DNA of 64,000 bases. It comes from Campylobacter ureolyticus ACS-301-V-Sch3b (GTDB taxonomy: Bacteria > Campylobacterota > Campylobacteria > Campylobacterales > Campylobacteraceae). The translations under genes were made by a program, and so were the position numbers. The stretch covers positions 368,704 through 432,703 of the forward strand of contig NZ_KE340326.1 of the NCBI RefSeq assembly GCF_000413435.1. Reading direction: 5' to 3'. Under the pieces are notes generated by a model that ran no database searches, was not told the origin of the DNA, and saw nothing but the letters and a program-made list of their open reading frames with translations. Positions 9,874 to 44,795 of the stretch are shown piece after piece; the first letter of the stretch is position 1, and every line of letters begins with the position of its first letter.

Positions 9874-10941
9874 ATGCTTGCTGATAAGCTTGAAAATTTT
9901 ATAAAAAGATATGACGAGATCTCAAATTTGCTCGTCAGTCAAGACATTATCAGCAATGTAGATGAAATGACTAAACTTGCTAAAGAGCAAAGCAGTCTTG
10001 AAGAAATTTACAAAGCATCAAAAGAATACTTTAGCACAATCGAAGGCATCGAAGATAACAAAAATTTACTAGAAGATCCAGAACTTGGTGAACTTGCAAA
10101 AGAGGAATTAAAACTCTTAGAAGACAAAAAATTATCTCTTGAAAATGAGATTAAAATACTTCTCATCCCAAAAGATCCAAACGATGATAGAAATATATTT
10201 TTAGAGCTTCGTGCTGGAACAGGTGGAGATGAGGCTGCACTTTTTGTTGGAGATTTAGTAAATGCATATATAAGATATGCTGAAATTAAAGGCTATAAAA
10301 CTGAAATCGTTTCTCAAAGCGAAGGAAGTGCCGGAGGTTTTAAAGAAATTATCCTACTTGTAAAAGGAAAAGGAGCTTATTCAAGACTTAAATTTGAAGG
10401 TGGAACCCACAGAGTTCAAAGAGTTCCTGAAACTGAAAGCCAAGGAAGAGTTCACACTAGCGCAATAACTGTTGCTATCATGCCAGAAGTTGATGATAAT
10501 GATATAATCATCAATCCAAGCGATCTTAAAATAGATGTTATGAGAAGCTCAGGACATGGCGGACAAAGCGTAAATACAACTGATAGTGCCGTTAGAGTTA
10601 CTCATATACCAACTGGACTTGTTGTAGTAAATCAAGATGGAAAAAGCCAACATAAAAATAAAGATGCTGCTTTAAAAGTTTTAAAAGCAAGGCTTTATGA
10701 GATGCAAGAGGCTAAACGTCTTGAAGAAGAGAGAGAAAAACGAAAAGAACAAGTTGGAACTGGCGATAGAAGCGGAAGGATAAGAACCTACAACTACCCA
10801 CAAAACAGAATCTCTGATCATCGTATAAATTTAACTCTTTATAGACTAGAAGCAATTATGTCAGCTGGACTTTTTGATGAGATAATAGATCCACTAATTG
10901 CCTATTATCAAGCAAAAGCGGTCTCAGGTGAAGAAGATTAA
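9874..10941 (+). CDS. prfA: Peptide chain release factor 1
   Basis: It recognises UAA and UAG and triggers peptide release. The GGQ catalytic loop appears as [10 protein letters not shown] (about residue 227). The RF1-type codon-recognition loop reads [13 protein letters not shown], with PET where E. coli has PAT. RF2's SPF is absent. At 355 residues it is full length. It is co-transcribed with rpsT. Confidence 0.96.
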
Positions 10942-37453: not shown

Positions 37454-37517
37454 TAAATAATATATTTAAATTAAATTGTTAGATTACAGTAGAAATAAGA
37501 AAGGTAAAAGAGAGCAG

Positions 37518-39893
37518 ATGAAAGTAATAAAAAGAAACGGCAGAACTGAAGAACTTGATATAAGCAAAATCAAAAAATATACAAAAGAGTCTGTTGAGGG
37601 GCTTGAAAATGTGAATTTAAGCGAGCTTGAAGTTGATGCAAAAATTCAATTTAGAGATATGATAACAACAGAAGAAATTCAACAAACTCTTATAAAAACA
37701 GCTGTTGATAAGATAGATATTGATCGCCCAAACTGGACTTTTGTAGCGGCGAGACTGTTTTTATATGATCTTTATCACAAAGTTACAGGATATACTGGAT
37801 ATCCACATTTACGTGAGTATTTTGAAAGAGGCGAAGAGGTTGGGCGAATTTTACTTGGACTAAAAGAAAAATATGATTTGGATGACCTAAATAGCTATAT
37901 TGACCCAAAACGCGACCTACAATTTACCTATCTTGGCATAAAAACACTTTATGATAGATATCTATTAAAAGATAAGAACGCCAATCCAATCGAACTTCCA
38001 CAACATATGTTTATGGCAATAGCTATGTTTTTAGCGCAAAATGAATTTGACTGCCAAAGTTGGGCTAAGAAATTTTATGATTTAATATCTAAATTTGAGG
38101 TTATGCCAGCAACCCCTACCCTATCTAACGCAAGAACAACACGCCACCAACTTTCATCTTGCTATATTGGCTCTACACCTGATAATATAGAAGGAATTTT
38201 TGATAGCTATAAAGAGATGGCGCTACTTTCTAAATTTGGCGGTGGGATCGGCTGGGACTGGAGCAAAGTAAGAGCTATGGGTGGCAGTATAGATGGGCAC
38301 AAAAACGCAGCTGGTGGAATAATACCATTTTTAAAAATAACAAATGATATTGCTGTTGCGGTTGATCAGCTAGGAACTAGAAAAGGAGCAATTGCTGTTT
38401 ATATTGAGCCTTGGCATATGGATGTGGGTGATTTTTTAGATCTTAGAAAAAACTCAGGTGAAGAAAGACGCAGAGCCCATGAAATTTTCCCAGCACTGTG
38501 GATAAATGATCTATTTATGAAAAGAGTTCAAAACAATGAAAAATGGACACTTTTTGATCCAGCTGACACGCAAAATTTAACAAATTTATATGGTGAAGAA
38601 TTTGAAAAAGAGTATGAAAAATATGAAAATAATCCAAACATTCCAAAAACAGTTATACTTGCAAAAGAGCTTTGGAAAAAGATTTTAACTTCATATTTTG
38701 AGACTGGAATGCCATTTTTAGCCTTTAAAGATAATGCAAATAAAAGAAACCCAAATTCTCACTCAGGCATAATAAGAAGCTCAAATTTATGTACTGAAAT
38801 TTTTCAAAATACAGAGCCTGATTATTACAAAATAAAAGTTATTTTTGAAGATGAAAGTGTTATGTTTTTTGATGAAGATGACATTGTAACAGTTGATAGT
38901 GGTATAACAAAACGAGCAAAAAAAATAACTTCGCTTGATTCTATGAATAATAAAAATATATTTATTGTTGAAAAGGAAAATATTCAAGGAAAAACCGCGG
39001 TTTGCAACCTTGCAAGTATAAATTTAAGCAAAATAAACACCAAAGAAGATATCCAAAGAGTTGTTCCAATAGCCATTAGAATGCTTGATAATGTGATTGA
39101 TCTAAATTTCTATCCACACGAAAAAGTAAAACATACAAATATTCACTCAAGAGCAATTGGACTCGGTGTTATGGGTGAAGCACAAATGCTTGCAACCAAA
39201 AAAATACCGTGGGGAAGCTACGAGCATTTTGAAAAAATAGATGAAATTATGGAAAACATAAGTTACAATGCCATATTAAGCTCATCAAATTTAGCCGTTG
39301 AAAAAGGCAAATATGCTGATTTTGAAGGCTCAAACTGGAGCAAAGGCATAATGCCAATTGATAATGCAAATGAGGAAGCTAAAAAACTTGTAAAAAGAGG
39401 TGGGCTTTTTGATGAGAATTCTTGCGATTGGGAAAGTTTAAGACAAAAAGTTAAACAAGATGGTATGAGAAATGGATATTTAATGGCAATAGCACCAACT
39501 TCTAGCATAAGTATTTTGGTTGGAACAACGCAAACAATTGAACCAGTTTATAAGAAAAAATGGTTTGAACACAATCTTAGTGGAATGATTCCAGTTGTTG
39601 TTCCAAATCTAACGCTTGATACATGGAATTTTTATACCTCAGCGTATGATCTAGAACAAACTCTACTTGTAAAAGCAGCAGCCGTTAGACAAAAATGGAT
39701 AGATCAAGGACAAAGTTTAAATATATTTATAAGTCTTGACAAGGCTTCGGGTGGGTTACTAAACAGCATTTACACACTTGCTTGGAAACTTGGAGTAAAA
39801 TCAACTTATTATCTAAGAAGCCAAAGCCCTGATACTGTGGCTGCTGAAAAAGCCGCAATGGATAGAAGCATAGAGTGTGAAGGTTGTCAGTAA
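37518..39893 (+). CDS. nrdA: Class Ia ribonucleoside-diphosphate reductase, alpha subunit
   Basis: It reduces ribonucleotides to deoxyribonucleotides with the NrdB radical. An ATP-cone (about 1-90) precedes the barrel. The redox Cys is in LSSCYIGST (about 214), the thiyl radical site in SSNLCTEIF (about 422), its partner in TAVCNLASINL (about 492), the tyrosine pathway near the end, and the C-terminal cysteine pair in ECEGCQ. The roughly 70 residues between the last two barrel motifs are far longer than in E. coli (about 20). The start MKVIKRNGR is chosen over an upstream frame of 14 extra residues. Confidence 0.95.
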   Translation: MKVIKRNGRTEELDISKIKKYTKESVEGLENVNLSELEVDAKIQFRDMITTEEIQQTLIKTAVDKIDIDRPNWTFVAARLFLYDLYHKVTGYTGYPHLREYFERGEEVGRILLGLKEKYDLDDLNSYIDPKRDLQFTYLGIKTLYDRYLLKDKNANPIELPQHMFMAIAMFLAQNEFDCQSWAKKFYDLISKFEVMPATPTLSNARTTRHQLSSCYIGSTPDNIEGIFDSYKEMALLSKFGGGIGWDWSKVRAMGGSIDGHKNAAGGIIPFLKITNDIAVAVDQLGTRKGAIAVYIEPWHMDVGDFLDLRKNSGEERRRAHEIFPALWINDLFMKRVQNNEKWTLFDPADTQNLTNLYGEEFEKEYEKYENNPNIPKTVILAKELWKKILTSYFETGMPFLAFKDNANKRNPNSHSGIIRSSNLCTEIFQNTEPDYYKIKVIFEDESVMFFDEDDIVTVDSGITKRAKKITSLDSMNNKNIFIVEKENIQGKTAVCNLASINLSKINTKEDIQRVVPIAIRMLDNVIDLNFYPHEKVKHTNIHSRAIGLGVMGEAQMLATKKIPWGSYEHFEKIDEIMENISYNAILSSSNLAVEKGKYADFEGSNWSKGIMPIDNANEEAKKLVKRGGLFDENSCDWESLRQKVKQDGMRNGYLMAIAPTSSISILVGTTQTIEPVYKKKWFEHNLSGMIPVVVPNLTLDTWNFYTSAYDLEQTLLVKAAAVRQKWIDQGQSLNIFISLDKASGGLLNSIYTLAWKLGVKSTYYLRSQSPDTVAAEKAAMDRSIECEGCQ

Positions 39894-40725: not shown

Positions 40726-42822
40726 TTGACACAAAAAGAGATTTTAAAAAGAGATGGAAGTAAAGAGGAGTTTTTACCATACAAAATTGAAGATGCTATA
40801 AAAAAGGCATTTAAAAGCGAAAATAAGCCTTATGATAAAAGCATCTTTGATGCAGTTATGGATGAAATAACTTTTAAAAAAATAGTTGCTGTTGAAGACA
40901 TTCAAGATATTATTGAAAAAGCGCTTTTTAAGGCAGGTTATTTTGATGAACTAAAAAGTTTTATGCTCTATCGTCACACCCACAAAATGCAAAGAGAACA
41001 AATTCTAGGGTTAAATGACGATACGACATACATTAACTCAACACAAACAATAAATGAGTATATTAATGGAACTGATTGGCGAATAAGTGCAAACTCAAAT
41101 ACGAGTTATTCAAACGCTGGTCTTATAAACAACACAGCAGGAAAAGTTATCGCAAACTATTGGCTAGATGCTGTTTACAGTAAAGAAGAGGGTTTAGCAC
41201 ATAGAAATGGTGATTATCACATTCACGATTTAGATTGCTTAACTGGATATTGTGCTGGATGGAGCTTAAGAGCACTTTTAAATGAAGGATTTAACGGAGT
41301 TAGAGGCAGAGTTGAAAGCCGTCCTCCAAAGCACTTTCGTGAAGCTCTTTATCAAATGGCAAATTTCTTAGGAATATTACAAAGCGAATGGGCTGGAGCA
41401 CAGGCTTTTTCAAGTTTTGATACATATTTAGCACCTTATGTTTTTAGAGATAAACTAAGCTACTCTGAGATGAAAAAAGCCATTACAAATTTTATATTCA
41501 ACCTAAATGTGCCTGCAAGATGGGGTCAAAGTCCTTTTACAAATATAACTATTGACTTAACTCCGCCAAGTGATTTAAAAGACCAAATTCCAACTCATGA
41601 TGATAAGCATCTTTTTAGAGACTTAGAAGATGATAAAGAGCTTTTAGAGCTGGCAAACAAGCGAGGTAAAAAGCATTTAATCGACATGACTTATGGCGAT
41701 TTTCAGCCTGAAATGGATGCTATAAATAAAGCATTTTATGAGGTAATGACAAAAGGCGATCGCCTAGGACAGCCTTTTACTTTTCCAATTCCTACTGTAA
41801 ATATAACTGAAGATTTTAACTGGGATAGCGAAGTAGCTGATGCATTGTTTGAAAATACAGCAAAAATAGGCTCAAGCTATTTTCAAAATTTCATAGGAAG
41901 CCAATATATAAAAGATGAAAATGGAAATTTAGTTGAAAATCCAAAAGCCTACAAGCCAGGTCATGTAAGAAGCATGTGTTGTAGGCTACAACTTGATTTA
42001 AGAGAACTTTTAAAAAGAGGTGGCGGACTTTTTGGAAGTGCTGAAATGACTGGAAGCATCGGTGTTGTGACTATAAATTTGGCCCGTCTTGGATATTTAT
42101 ATAAAAATGACAAAAAAGCACTTTTTCAAAGACTTGACTATCTTTGCGAGCTTGCCAAAAGCACACTTGAAAAAAAGAGAAAATTTATCCAAGAAATGTA
42201 TAATCGAGGGCTTTATCCATACACCGCAAGATATCTACCTGGGTTTAAAAATCACTTCTCAACTATCGGTATAAACGGCGCAAATGAGATGATAAGAAAT
42301 TTCACAAACGATAAAGAAAACATTACAACTAAATTTGGAAGGGAATTTTCACTTGAAATAATAGAACATTTAAGAGAAAAAATTAAAACTTTTCAACAAG
42401 TTACTGGAAATTTATATAATCTTGAAGCAACGCCAGCAGAAGGCACAACATACCGCTTCGCAAAAGAAGATATAAAAAGATACCCGGATATAATCCAAGC
42501 AGGAACTAAAGAAAATAACTACTACACAAACTCAACACAACTTCCTGCAAATTTTGGAGATGATCCATTTGAAGCACTTGATTTACAAGATGAACTGCAA
42601 AGCAACTATACAGGCGGAACAGTGTTTCACCTGTATATGAAAGAACGAATTAGCTCAAAAGAGGCGTGCAAAAACCTAGTAAAAAATATAGTTACAAATT
42701 ACAAACTTCCATATATTACAATCACGCCTGTTTTTAGTGTATGTAAAATTCACGGATATATAGCAGGCGAGCATGAGTTTTGCCCATATTGTGATGAAGA
42801 AATTTTAAAACAAGCAAATTAA
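40726..42822 (+). CDS. nrdD: Anaerobic (class III) ribonucleoside-triphosphate reductase, large polypeptide lacking the glycyl-radical tail
   Basis: This is an oxygen-sensitive reductase used in anaerobic growth. An ATP-cone (about 1-90) is followed by the barrel (HRNGDYHIHDLDCLTGYC; SMCCRLQLDLRELL; the GSAEMTGSIGVV loop). The C-terminus ends with the zinc-site part CKIHGYIAGEHEFCPYC and then stops. The conserved glycyl-radical segment that normally follows is absent from this chain and is encoded by the next ORF. It starts at TTG with AGGA nearby. The length is 698 residues. Confidence 0.94.
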   Translation: MTQKEILKRDGSKEEFLPYKIEDAIKKAFKSENKPYDKSIFDAVMDEITFKKIVAVEDIQDIIEKALFKAGYFDELKSFMLYRHTHKMQREQILGLNDDTTYINSTQTINEYINGTDWRISANSNTSYSNAGLINNTAGKVIANYWLDAVYSKEEGLAHRNGDYHIHDLDCLTGYCAGWSLRALLNEGFNGVRGRVESRPPKHFREALYQMANFLGILQSEWAGAQAFSSFDTYLAPYVFRDKLSYSEMKKAITNFIFNLNVPARWGQSPFTNITIDLTPPSDLKDQIPTHDDKHLFRDLEDDKELLELANKRGKKHLIDMTYGDFQPEMDAINKAFYEVMTKGDRLGQPFTFPIPTVNITEDFNWDSEVADALFENTAKIGSSYFQNFIGSQYIKDENGNLVENPKAYKPGHVRSMCCRLQLDLRELLKRGGGLFGSAEMTGSIGVVTINLARLGYLYKNDKKALFQRLDYLCELAKSTLEKKRKFIQEMYNRGLYPYTARYLPGFKNHFSTIGINGANEMIRNFTNDKENITTKFGREFSLEIIEHLREKIKTFQQVTGNLYNLEATPAEGTTYRFAKEDIKRYPDIIQAGTKENNYYTNSTQLPANFGDDPFEALDLQDELQSNYTGGTVFHLYMKERISSKEACKNLVKNIVTNYKLPYITITPVFSVCKIHGYIAGEHEFCPYCDEEILKQAN

Positions 42823-42834
42823 AAGGAGAATAAA

Positions 42835-43008
42835 ATGAGTAGAGATGAAATTTTAAATGCAAACAAAGACAAAAGAACAAAATGCGTTGTTTATACAAGG
42901 GTTATGGGTTATCACAGACCAGTTGAGAGTTTTAATATTGGTAAAATTGGCGAACACAATGAAAGAGTTAAATTTTGTGAGAATCCCAAAAAAGTAAAAT
43001 CGGCCTAA
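42835..43008 (+). CDS. Separately encoded glycyl-radical C-terminal module of NrdD
   Basis: This 57-residue protein starts MSRDEILNANKDK and contains TKCVVYTRVMGYHRPVESFN, which corresponds to the end of normal NrdD proteins. The RVxGY motif, with radical glycine about residue 25, and the IGKIGEHNERVKF tail are the glycyl-radical domain. It has its own ideal AAGGAG site and is in the same reading frame as nrdD, 12 nt beyond its TAA. A Cys at residue 17 would add to the zinc site completed by the main chain. It must dock with NrdD, much as GrcA/YfiD docks with pyruvate formate-lyase. nrdG follows after 2 nt. Confidence 0.85.
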   Translation: MSRDEILNANKDKRTKCVVYTRVMGYHRPVESFNIGKIGEHNERVKFCENPKKVKSA

Positions 43009-43010
43009 AA

Positions 43011-43685
43011 ATGGCACTGATTTATTCTATAACGCCATTTACAATGCTTGATTATCCTGATAAACTAGCGTGCATCGTTTGGTTTTCAGGGTGTAATATG
43101 CGTTGTATTTACTGCTATAACACTGAAATTGTAAAAAGCAGTGGCGTTATAGAAAATAGTGAGTTTTTACACTTTTTAGATGAGCGCATAGACAAACTCG
43201 AAGCCGTTGTTTTTAGCGGCGGAGAATGCACATTAAATAAAGATTTTTTATATCTAGCAAAAGAGGTTAAAAAAAGAAATTTTAGCCTTAAAATAGACAC
43301 AAACGGTTCAAATTTAGAAATTTTAAAAAAAGCTATAAAGCTAAATTTAATTGATTATATTGCACTTGATTTTAAAGCATTAAAAGAAAATTATTTTTTA
43401 GTAACAAATTCTAATTTATATGAAAAATTTATAAAAACTTTAAAATATCTAATAAGTTTAAACTTTCCTTTTGAAGTTAGAACTACAATTCACGCTGATA
43501 TTTTTACAGAAAATGATATTTCAAAAATGGCTGAAATGCTAGAAAAATTTGGCTATAAAGGAGTTTATTATTTGCAAAATTTTCTAGAAACTGGTGAGAA
43601 TTTCGGAGTTTTACAAAACCCAACAAATAGTTTTGATCCAAAAAAAATTAAATCCAATTTAAAAATAGAGTTAAGAAATTTTTAA
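43011..43685 (+). CDS. nrdG: Anaerobic ribonucleotide reductase activating enzyme
   Basis: This radical-SAM activase generates the glycyl radical. The Fe-S motif CNMRCIYC (about 29-36) is CxxxCxxC, followed by VVFSGGECTL. It begins MALIYSITPFTMLDYPDK, typical of NrdG/PflA-like activases in this phylum. At 224 residues it is normal. It follows the glycyl-radical module gene by 2 nt, so the activase and its direct substrate peptide are translated next to each other. Confidence 0.93.
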   Translation: MALIYSITPFTMLDYPDKLACIVWFSGCNMRCIYCYNTEIVKSSGVIENSEFLHFLDERIDKLEAVVFSGGECTLNKDFLYLAKEVKKRNFSLKIDTNGSNLEILKKAIKLNLIDYIALDFKALKENYFLVTNSNLYEKFIKTLKYLISLNFPFEVRTTIHADIFTENDISKMAEMLEKFGYKGVYYLQNFLETGENFGVLQNPTNSFDPKKIKSNLKIELRNF

Positions 43686-43766: not shown

Positions 43767-44795
43767 ATGACAATTGATAAGAAAAAAATTTATAATCCAG
43801 AGTCCAATGAAACACTTGGCAATAGAAAAGTTTTTGGTGGAAATCCACACGGAATTTTAAATTTCACAAAAGCTAAATATCAGTGGGCTTTAAAGCTTTG
43901 GGATTTAATGGAAGCAAATACTTGGTTTCCTAAAGAAGTCGATACAACCGATGATGTAAGAGACTACAACTTTAACTTAACACAGGCTGAAAAAAGAATG
44001 TATGATTTAGTTTGGAGCCAACTTATCTCAATGGATAGCTTTCAAACAAACAACTTAGCTGATAATATTAATCCTTATATCACCGCTCCTGAAATAAATG
44101 CCATTTTAGTTCGTCAAGCCTATGAAGAAGCAAACCACTCTAAAAGTTACGCTGTAATGGTTGAGGCAATATGTGAAAATACAGATTTAATATACGAAAT
44201 GGAAAAACATGATGCAGTTTTGAAAAAAAAGAATGATTATATTTCAAGCGTTTATGAAGATCTTGCTGGCGATGTAACAGAAGAAAAGTTGGTTTTAGCA
44301 ATGATTGCAAATCAAATTTTAGAAGGAATTTATTTTTACAGTGGATTTACTGCGATTTATGCATTAGCAAGAGCTGGAAAGATGCTAGGATCAGCTCAAA
44401 TGATAAGATTTATCCAAAGAGATGAAATAACTCATCTTTTACTCTTTCAAAACATGATAAATACAGTAAAAAAAGAAAGACCTGATCTATTTAGTGAAAA
44501 AATTATAAATAAAATCTATGAAATGTTTGAAAAAGCTGGAGAACTTGAAATAGAATGGGGAAAATACATCACTCAAAACCAAATTATGGGCTTTACAGAT
44601 GATATTATAACTGATTATATTCATTATTTAGTCGATCAGCGATTAACTGCAATTGGCTTAAAGAAAAAATATGGTGTAAAACATCCAATAAAATGGGTTG
44701 ATGACTTTGCTAAATTTAATGATCAAAAATCAAATTTCTTTGAAAGTAAAGTTACAAATTACAGCAAAGGTAGCTTAACTTTTGATGATTTTTAA
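43767..44795 (+). CDS. nrdB: Class Ia ribonucleoside-diphosphate reductase, beta subunit
   Basis: It houses the di-iron tyrosyl radical. The iron ligands and radical tyrosine are in the canonical EEANHSKSY (ExxHxxxY, Tyr about 129), with a second ExxH in QRDEITHLL. The C-terminal tail ending LTFDDF is the NrdA-binding peptide. At 342 residues it is normal. It lies after the class III genes instead of beside nrdA. Confidence 0.95.

Follow-up and report, generated by a model that had tools for sequence, protein, structure and literature searches.

A class III ribonucleotide reductase of Campylobacter ureolyticus with its glycyl-radical region encoded as a separate small protein, and free copies of this module beside phage genes and on viral contigs

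Introduction

Described class III ribonucleotide reductases (RNR), such as the NrdD enzymes of phage T4, Thermotoga maritima and Prevotella copri, carry the radical loop at the C-terminus of the catalytic chain, and the table of RNR classes in a 2015 review, as its passages present it, enters the storage radical of this class as 'Glycine in enzyme' and gives a separate radical subunit only for class I (PMC4390871). The subject of this report is the nrdD locus of Campylobacter ureolyticus ACS-301-V-Sch3b, analysed within a stretch of 64,000 nucleotides (nt) of contig NZ_KE340326.1 (assembly GCF_000413435.1, forward-strand positions 368,704 to 432,703), hereafter the window. This locus resembles the described enzymes in core profile, ATP-cone, barrel fold, zinc-site motif, adjacent NrdG and conserved tail sequence, but its radical loop lies in a separate small protein of 57 amino acids (aa), with counterparts of 66 aa in Cupriavidus necator and 48 aa in Pseudomonas.

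In class I RNR (NrdA and NrdB) a tyrosyl radical and metal centre are made with oxygen, and the radical subunit is unrelated to the module described here. A separate subunit holding the storage radical is nonetheless shared with that class (PMC4390871), and the class II RNR of Pseudomonas aeruginosa, NrdJa/NrdJb, likewise has its reductase on two chains (PMC4860495, PMC9669993), although it belongs to another class and the division there would not set the active site and a stable storage radical on different chains. A further parallel is offered by GrcA/YfiD of Escherichia coli and Y06I of phage T4, small free proteins that duplicate the C-terminus of a glycyl-radical enzyme and include a phage-borne version (PMC8683613). 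The module differs from these in being related to the NrdD tail and not to that of pyruvate formate-lyase (PFL), in its size (about 50 aa against about 14 kDa) and in that the NrdD core lacks a tail, which makes the module a required component instead of an additional one. Passages of the same 2021 paper name only YfiD and Y06I, both for PFL, as validated spare parts and ask about other glycyl-radical enzymes (PMC8683613). A family-wide survey discarded all sequences shorter than 400 residues, according to passages of its text (PMC9531940); size filters of this kind can conceal a free module. No description of a split NrdD or of free NrdD modules was found in the literature searched, which comprised titles, abstract openings and passages in which subscription papers are under-represented.

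Results

The nrdD locus of the window

The original prediction, made from the letters of the window and their open reading frames (ORFs), was that NrdD ends just after its CPYC motif and that the next small ORF encodes the missing tail with the radical glycine. Both statements were borne out by the following features:

40726..42822, + strand: nrdD core, 698 aa, TTG start; Pfam ATP-cone at residues 5-87 and NRDD profile positions 2-531 of 562
42742..42792, + strand: CKIHGYIAGEHEFCPYC, zinc-site motif near the core C-terminus; C673, H676, C686 and C689 invariant in alignment A5
42820..42822, + strand: TAA stop codon of the nrdD core, read from the sequence
42823..42828, + strand: AAGGAG ribosome-binding site of the small ORF, 6 nt upstream of its ATG
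42835..43008, + strand: free glycyl-radical module, 57 aa, ATG start, stop codon at 43006-43008; Pfam NRDD profile positions 532-562
42907..42909, + strand: radical glycine codon, module G25 in RVMGY; invariant in alignments A1 (24 rows) and A3 (37 rows)
43011..43685, + strand: nrdG, radical-SAM activase of NrdG2 type, 224 aa; NCBIfam TIGR02495, 183.6 bits against a cut-off of 131.15

The core ends in CPYC-DEEILKQAN, nine residues beyond CPYC, and the small ORF, which contains TKCVVYTRVMGYHRP including the radical Gly codon, starts 12 nt past the TAA in the same frame as nrdD, with its own AAGGAG and with 2 nt between its end and nrdG, this placement of the small ORF being as predicted. The zinc role of the CKIHGYIAGEHEFCPYC motif and the radical role of G25 are presumed from what is known of the NrdD family.

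The Pfam NRDD profile (562 positions) was partitioned without overlap between the two proteins. The core matched positions 2-531 (E 6.8e-162) in addition to the ATP-cone (E 2.4e-17), as expected of a class III RNR, and the solved structures closest to it, among the best chains listed, were class III RNRs. A dedicated radical-SAM activase is encoded adjacent, as is usual for this class; the glycyl-radical motif, however, is not at the C-terminus of the same chain and is encoded by the separate ORF. The small ORF matched positions 532-562 with 27.3 bits (cut-off 26.2), and its matches at E <= 1 comprised only NRDD and, below cut-off, YdfZ; the family of the PFL C-terminus, which we take to be Pfam Gly_radical, was not among them. 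Short homologues of the module numbered 1822 at E <= 1e-3, above chance. One of these records, a 51-aa protein (P0027), bears the database name 'N-terminal region' and is the C-terminal module, hence a misannotation.

Neighbouring genes in the window included one further reductase gene on each side:

37476..39893, + strand: nrdA, class I catalytic subunit, upstream; profile match
43767..44795, + strand: putative nrdB-like ORF, downstream

No second module was found in the window. The finger loop of NrdD reads SMCCR (residues 416-420, window 41971-41985), with an adjacent Cys pair as in T. maritima NrdD (SCCR).

Conservation and gene arrangement in Campylobacteria and related loci

Matches to the core were found in 207 of 397 class genomes at E <= 0.001 and in 187 at E < 1e-100, the 20 weaker matches being excluded from the census, and matches to module alignment A1 were found in 185 of the 397. 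The free module was present in 184 of the 187 genomes with this NrdD; the core lies at a contig end in two of the remaining three (G356, G332) and was matched only over residues 6-382 in the third (G125), while one genome (G355) had a module without a core match. All module matches listed lay in open frames of 48-129 aa. The nearest genome, G001, encodes an NrdD 99% identical to that of the window; there the core row continues through the TAA and one additional module covers profile positions 532-562. The single core of G080 and G235 has no tail of its own, ending at profile position 532 or 534, and separate modules cover 530/531-562. In these three genomes the module is therefore not an extra copy beside a full-length enzyme with its own tail. 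The median ratio of non-synonymous to synonymous substitution (dN/dS) among host module copies was 0.082 with no pair at or above 1, and by this measure the modules are under purifying selection.

A continuous gene in related genomes would have spoken against the original prediction of evolved fission; none was seen in this NrdD subfamily among the Campylobacteria matches listed, although fused subfamily members exist elsewhere. Four genomes out of ten others that were checked (G012, G002, G255, G261; loci L319-L322) encode another type of NrdD, whose tail is in frame with the core, and the proposition that Campylobacterota possess no fused NrdD was rejected on this account. Because of these four genomes our conservation claim is limited to the present subfamily. 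The fused NrdD is a distant relative that some Campylobacteria carry instead of the split one.

Gene arrangement was parsed at 139 loci where a module lies downstream of a core. These comprised 27 loci from L001-L030, 8 opened regions, 78 from genome_contigs, 4 plasmid, 20 from further class genomes and 2 viral; this set includes near-identical relatives, and G001 is counted twice. The gene was split at 137 and fused at two. Relative frames of 0, +1 and +2 were seen 51, 53 and 33 times, and all of the stop codons TAA, TGA and TAG were represented. The occurrence of all three frames rules out read-through or frameshifting as a general mechanism. Of 130 split loci parsed for starts, 129 had ATG as the best-placed start and 128 a ribosome-site match of at least 4 bases ahead of it, the start having been chosen to favour such a match and without a shuffled control. 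Across these 130 loci the gap between core and module spanned -49 to 173 nt, with 31 overlapping. The 12-nt gap of the window led us to reject an intein or intron there, and the gaps of the 130 loci likewise speak against an intervening element.

Larger separations were also encountered. The longest local spacing reached about 1.6 kb with another gene in between. In genus g4 (L074, L076) a 456-aa gene, whose product we take to resemble nicotinamide phosphoribosyltransferase, stands between nrdD and the module, and in g52 and g64 (L078, L079, L070) the two are separated by two short genes of about 110 and 160 aa. The module lay close behind nrdD in 27 of the first 30 loci and elsewhere in G080, G263 and G195; the module-nrdG pair was near position 10 kb in G080 and G195, about 94 and 58 kb away from nrdD, and was likewise distant in G202, G171 and G214. 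The presence of the free module in 184 of 187 genomes, the three frames, the distant module-nrdG pairs and purifying selection support the prediction that the locus arose by fission and not by damage.

Occurrence in other phyla and phylogeny

The proposed survey of relatives also showed that the split extends beyond Campylobacterota, and a restriction to that phylum was rejected. A genome_contigs scan with alignment A2 gave 579 confirmed loci, the best 80 of which were analysed: 77 had the module apart from an adjacent core, one was fused (Maricaulis, L183) and two had no core seen (L177, L178). Named hosts among these 80 included Pseudomonas, Stutzerimonas, Thiobacillus, Chromatiaceae, Duganella, Massilia, Rhodospira and Desulfobulbaceae, and Elusimicrobiota, Verrucomicrobia, Coriobacteriia and Zipacnadia were each represented by a single contig of an assigned metagenome-assembled genome. 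Plasmids yielded 28 records, eight of which were opened. The locus was split in C. necator pHG1, Shinella and Sulfuricurvum, had a separate module with a core matched only in part in Bradyrhizobium, and was fused in Acidiphilium, Acidithiobacillus and Actinomyces; the eighth record, C. metallidurans, has no gene table. Plasmid records label both pieces as reductase, and the small piece is given the gene name nrdD. The homologues of the P. nitroreducens module, numbering 3377, included a 48-aa protein named from P. aeruginosa (P0127).

Fused members of this subfamily were found outside Campylobacteria (L183, L290, L312, L314). An earlier unrooted tree of 85 rows, including L186 with its broken frame, required three changes for four fused rows, with L312 apart from the others. 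In a second tree of 67 cores, thinned, without L186 and L191 and with five fused outgroups, 59 split and three fused rows formed one group with support of 84 (not starred), in which the fused rows were nested and joined together; outgroup branches in this tree were very long, up to 10. Fused sampling was thin, as the genome scan demanded [VI][YW]TRVMGY and ranked loci by likeness to a free viral module. The trees tentatively point to an old or ancestral split, with some of the fused forms having arisen secondarily.

Extra modules beside phage genes and free modules on viral contigs

New in this analysis are extra module copies among phage genes of bacterial genomes and free modules in 118 distinct viral contigs. 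Two to three module matches occurred in 18 of 185 Campylobacteria genomes. Intact extra modules were found in G001, G176, G080 (two), G214 (two), G235, G350, G116, G262, G213, G211 and G349 (two); the matches of G127, G105, G092 and G155 were degenerate or partial, G365 had a tandem fragment and G133 only one module. G225 has a duplicated region in which the second module (L326) is like the nrdD-adjacent one and the surroundings do not look like phage; the genome also has two NrdD matches. Neighbours were scanned at eleven extra-module loci (82 proteins), leaving out those of G262, G213 and the second locus of G214, and one to two proteins each matched terminase, tail, endolysin, integrase, Mu Gam and transposition families (25 of 99 families listed). 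Individual neighbours included a tail sheath (L061), a tail protein (L069) and a tail fibre (L325), with four of ten proteins checked giving no match, and phrog_355, a family tied to nucleotide metabolism, was matched by three of the 82.

The viral contigs came from two IMG/VR scans (53 loci, and the best 80 of 141), and their modules lay in frames of 26-362 aa, two of which are cut by the contig end. Over the stretch examined no NrdD core was present in 116 of the 118, the exceptions being L092, probably host DNA, and L117; where 2.5 kb or more upstream was examined, 87 of 89 contigs lacked one, as did 69 of 70 for which 2.5 kb on each side was covered. Neither core nor activase stood beside the module in the examined stretch of 142 of 144 loci. 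Among 150 neighbouring proteins of 30 viral loci, one to four each matched portal, terminase, endolysin, tail and helicase families (25 of 170 and 25 of 56 families listed), and one matched Thy1.

Phage copies seen retained RVMGY or a close variant with its flanking positions, in part through motif selection. Median dN/dS was 0.117 for phage modules of Campylobacterota type and 0.217 for other phage modules, with no pair at or above 1, values that motif-based retrieval of the viral sets lowers. A V after FN was considered as a phage signature (11 of 32 phage against 3 of 41 host copies, Fisher p 0.006, uncorrected for kinship) and was not relied on, as separation was weak. In L129 (about 9992-10150) and L130 (about 9980-10120) the table-11 frame ends at the conserved Gly after FN and continues past TGA if TGA is read as Gly (code 25), which points to hosts among Absconditabacteria/Gracilibacteria, whose code reads TGA in this way; L124, L127 and L128 perhaps end likewise.

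The archaeal virus ANMV-1 (KP703175, L315:5680-6114) encodes a 144-aa protein with CHDC, CPKC and the glycyl-radical tail, a free module cut one domain earlier. No NrdD core was found in ANMV-1 by tblastn, its annotated features name no other reductase, and no relative of the protein was found in viral_contigs. When five modules were compared with INPHARED, two had no match and three matched only ANMV-1 and a fecal record, which was rejected as a free module, since its NrdD is fused in the ordinary way and has an additional domain at the C-terminus. The NrdD of phage record MT835493 (L335, 5006-7435) is of the ordinary fused type with an extra C-terminal domain that we take to resemble glutaredoxin. 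The PHROGs family phrog_4132 was matched by nine of ten modules scanned from the window, prophages, viral contigs and bacteria (E <= 0.01, within positions 110-157 of 179), which suggests that this family, whose function is listed as unknown, contains an NrdD glycyl-radical module. The ANMV-1 protein did not match it.

Discussion

The locus very probably encodes a class III RNR of two polypeptides with a separate glycyl-radical subunit. The NrdD core would supply the ATP-cone, catalytic barrel and zinc-site motif and the 57-aa module only the glycyl-radical loop. NrdG would install the radical in trans on module G25 while the module docks on or near the core, as a one-chain structural model suggests, and the docked loop would enter the barrel near the finger-loop cysteine, acting like an ordinary NrdD tail. 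A spent module might then be swapped after oxygen cleavage; such GrcA-like exchange or repair is plausible by analogy, with a probability that we consider about even, and the free module copies found with phage genes and on viral contigs strengthen the comparison with GrcA/YfiD. For the viral copies we consider the likeliest role, to which we give roughly half the weight, to be that of subunits supplied to the host enzyme, which would use host core and activase to sustain deoxyribonucleoside triphosphates (dNTPs) in infection. Passages of one study give C. metallidurans NrdDG as Rmet_5137 and Rmet_5139, one number being skipped (PMC2864759). Taken with the evidence on Cupriavidus nrdDG in those passages, the split enzyme evidently works in vivo, because the C. 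necator H16 nrdD locus is split.

Several points weigh against this interpretation. The docking model was built as a single chain with read-through rows, so that the covalent link aided docking, and its finger-loop region (residues 411-440) has a predicted local distance difference test score of about 50 or lower, placing active-site contact outside the model. The Cupriavidus evidence, as the passages give it, bears on nrdDG jointly and not on the small ORF alone (PMC2864759). The stretch examined of any viral contig was about 20 kb at most, nine contigs having less than 500 nt upstream of the module, and the viral scans demanded YTRVMGY-type or HRPVESFN motifs, which partly accounts for glycine invariance there. 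Searching 50,697 INPHARED phage records by tblastn with the five modules yielded no bacterial phage with a free module, so it seems to be rare in phages that are named and sequenced.

That the two ORFs nevertheless yield one chain, through sequencing or assembly error, recent pseudogene formation, programmed read-through or frameshifting, could be entertained for the window, where they share a frame and lie 12 nt apart. Frames, gaps and conservation led us to reject all of these for the family as a whole, as three relative frames and three stop codons occur, gaps are variable with ATG almost always at the start, and the module may stand behind an intervening gene or elsewhere in the genome; we attach practically no probability to this explanation. 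Neutral fission, in which the chains associate permanently, the module is never exchanged and phage copies are hitch-hikers or gene-dosage carriers, deserves more weight and is still rather unlikely in our judgement. The position of the module close behind nrdD at most parsed loci fits a fixed stoichiometric subunit, and the fused relatives nested inside the split group on both trees indicate that fusion is tolerated, but several genomes keep the module with nrdG yet far from nrdD, intact extra copies stand, at the scanned loci, among phage genes, phage copies are under purifying selection and many viral contigs hold free copies.

The phage modules might instead inhibit by acting as decoys, tying up host NrdD or NrdG and halting the synthesis of host DNA precursors. 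In favour of this, nearly all of the 144 loci have no core or activase beside the module in the stretch examined, so that any target is probably the host enzyme. A pure decoy, however, need not keep the radical glycine, whereas phage copies keep the RVMGY-type motif with its flanks (again partly by selection); phages moreover need dNTPs, and a few neighbours are nucleotide-metabolism genes (phrog_355, Thy1). We regard inhibition as improbable.

A subfamily that spans phyla and includes Cupriavidus and Pseudomonas species, genera with genetic studies of nrdDG, breaks the rule of the review table as its passages state it (PMC4390871), and phrog_4132 gains a possible function. The spare-part question becomes testable in a system where core, module and activase are naturally separate, with exchange, repair and activation in trans measurable without an engineered cut. 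On the sequence evidence it is an evenly balanced proposition that viruses of bacteria and archaea carry this radical subunit of about 50 residues as an auxiliary metabolic gene, which host NrdG would charge and the host NrdD core would dock, so that anaerobic dNTP synthesis is kept or restored; this would amount to a spare-part system built on an old two-subunit enzyme with an exchangeable radical subunit.
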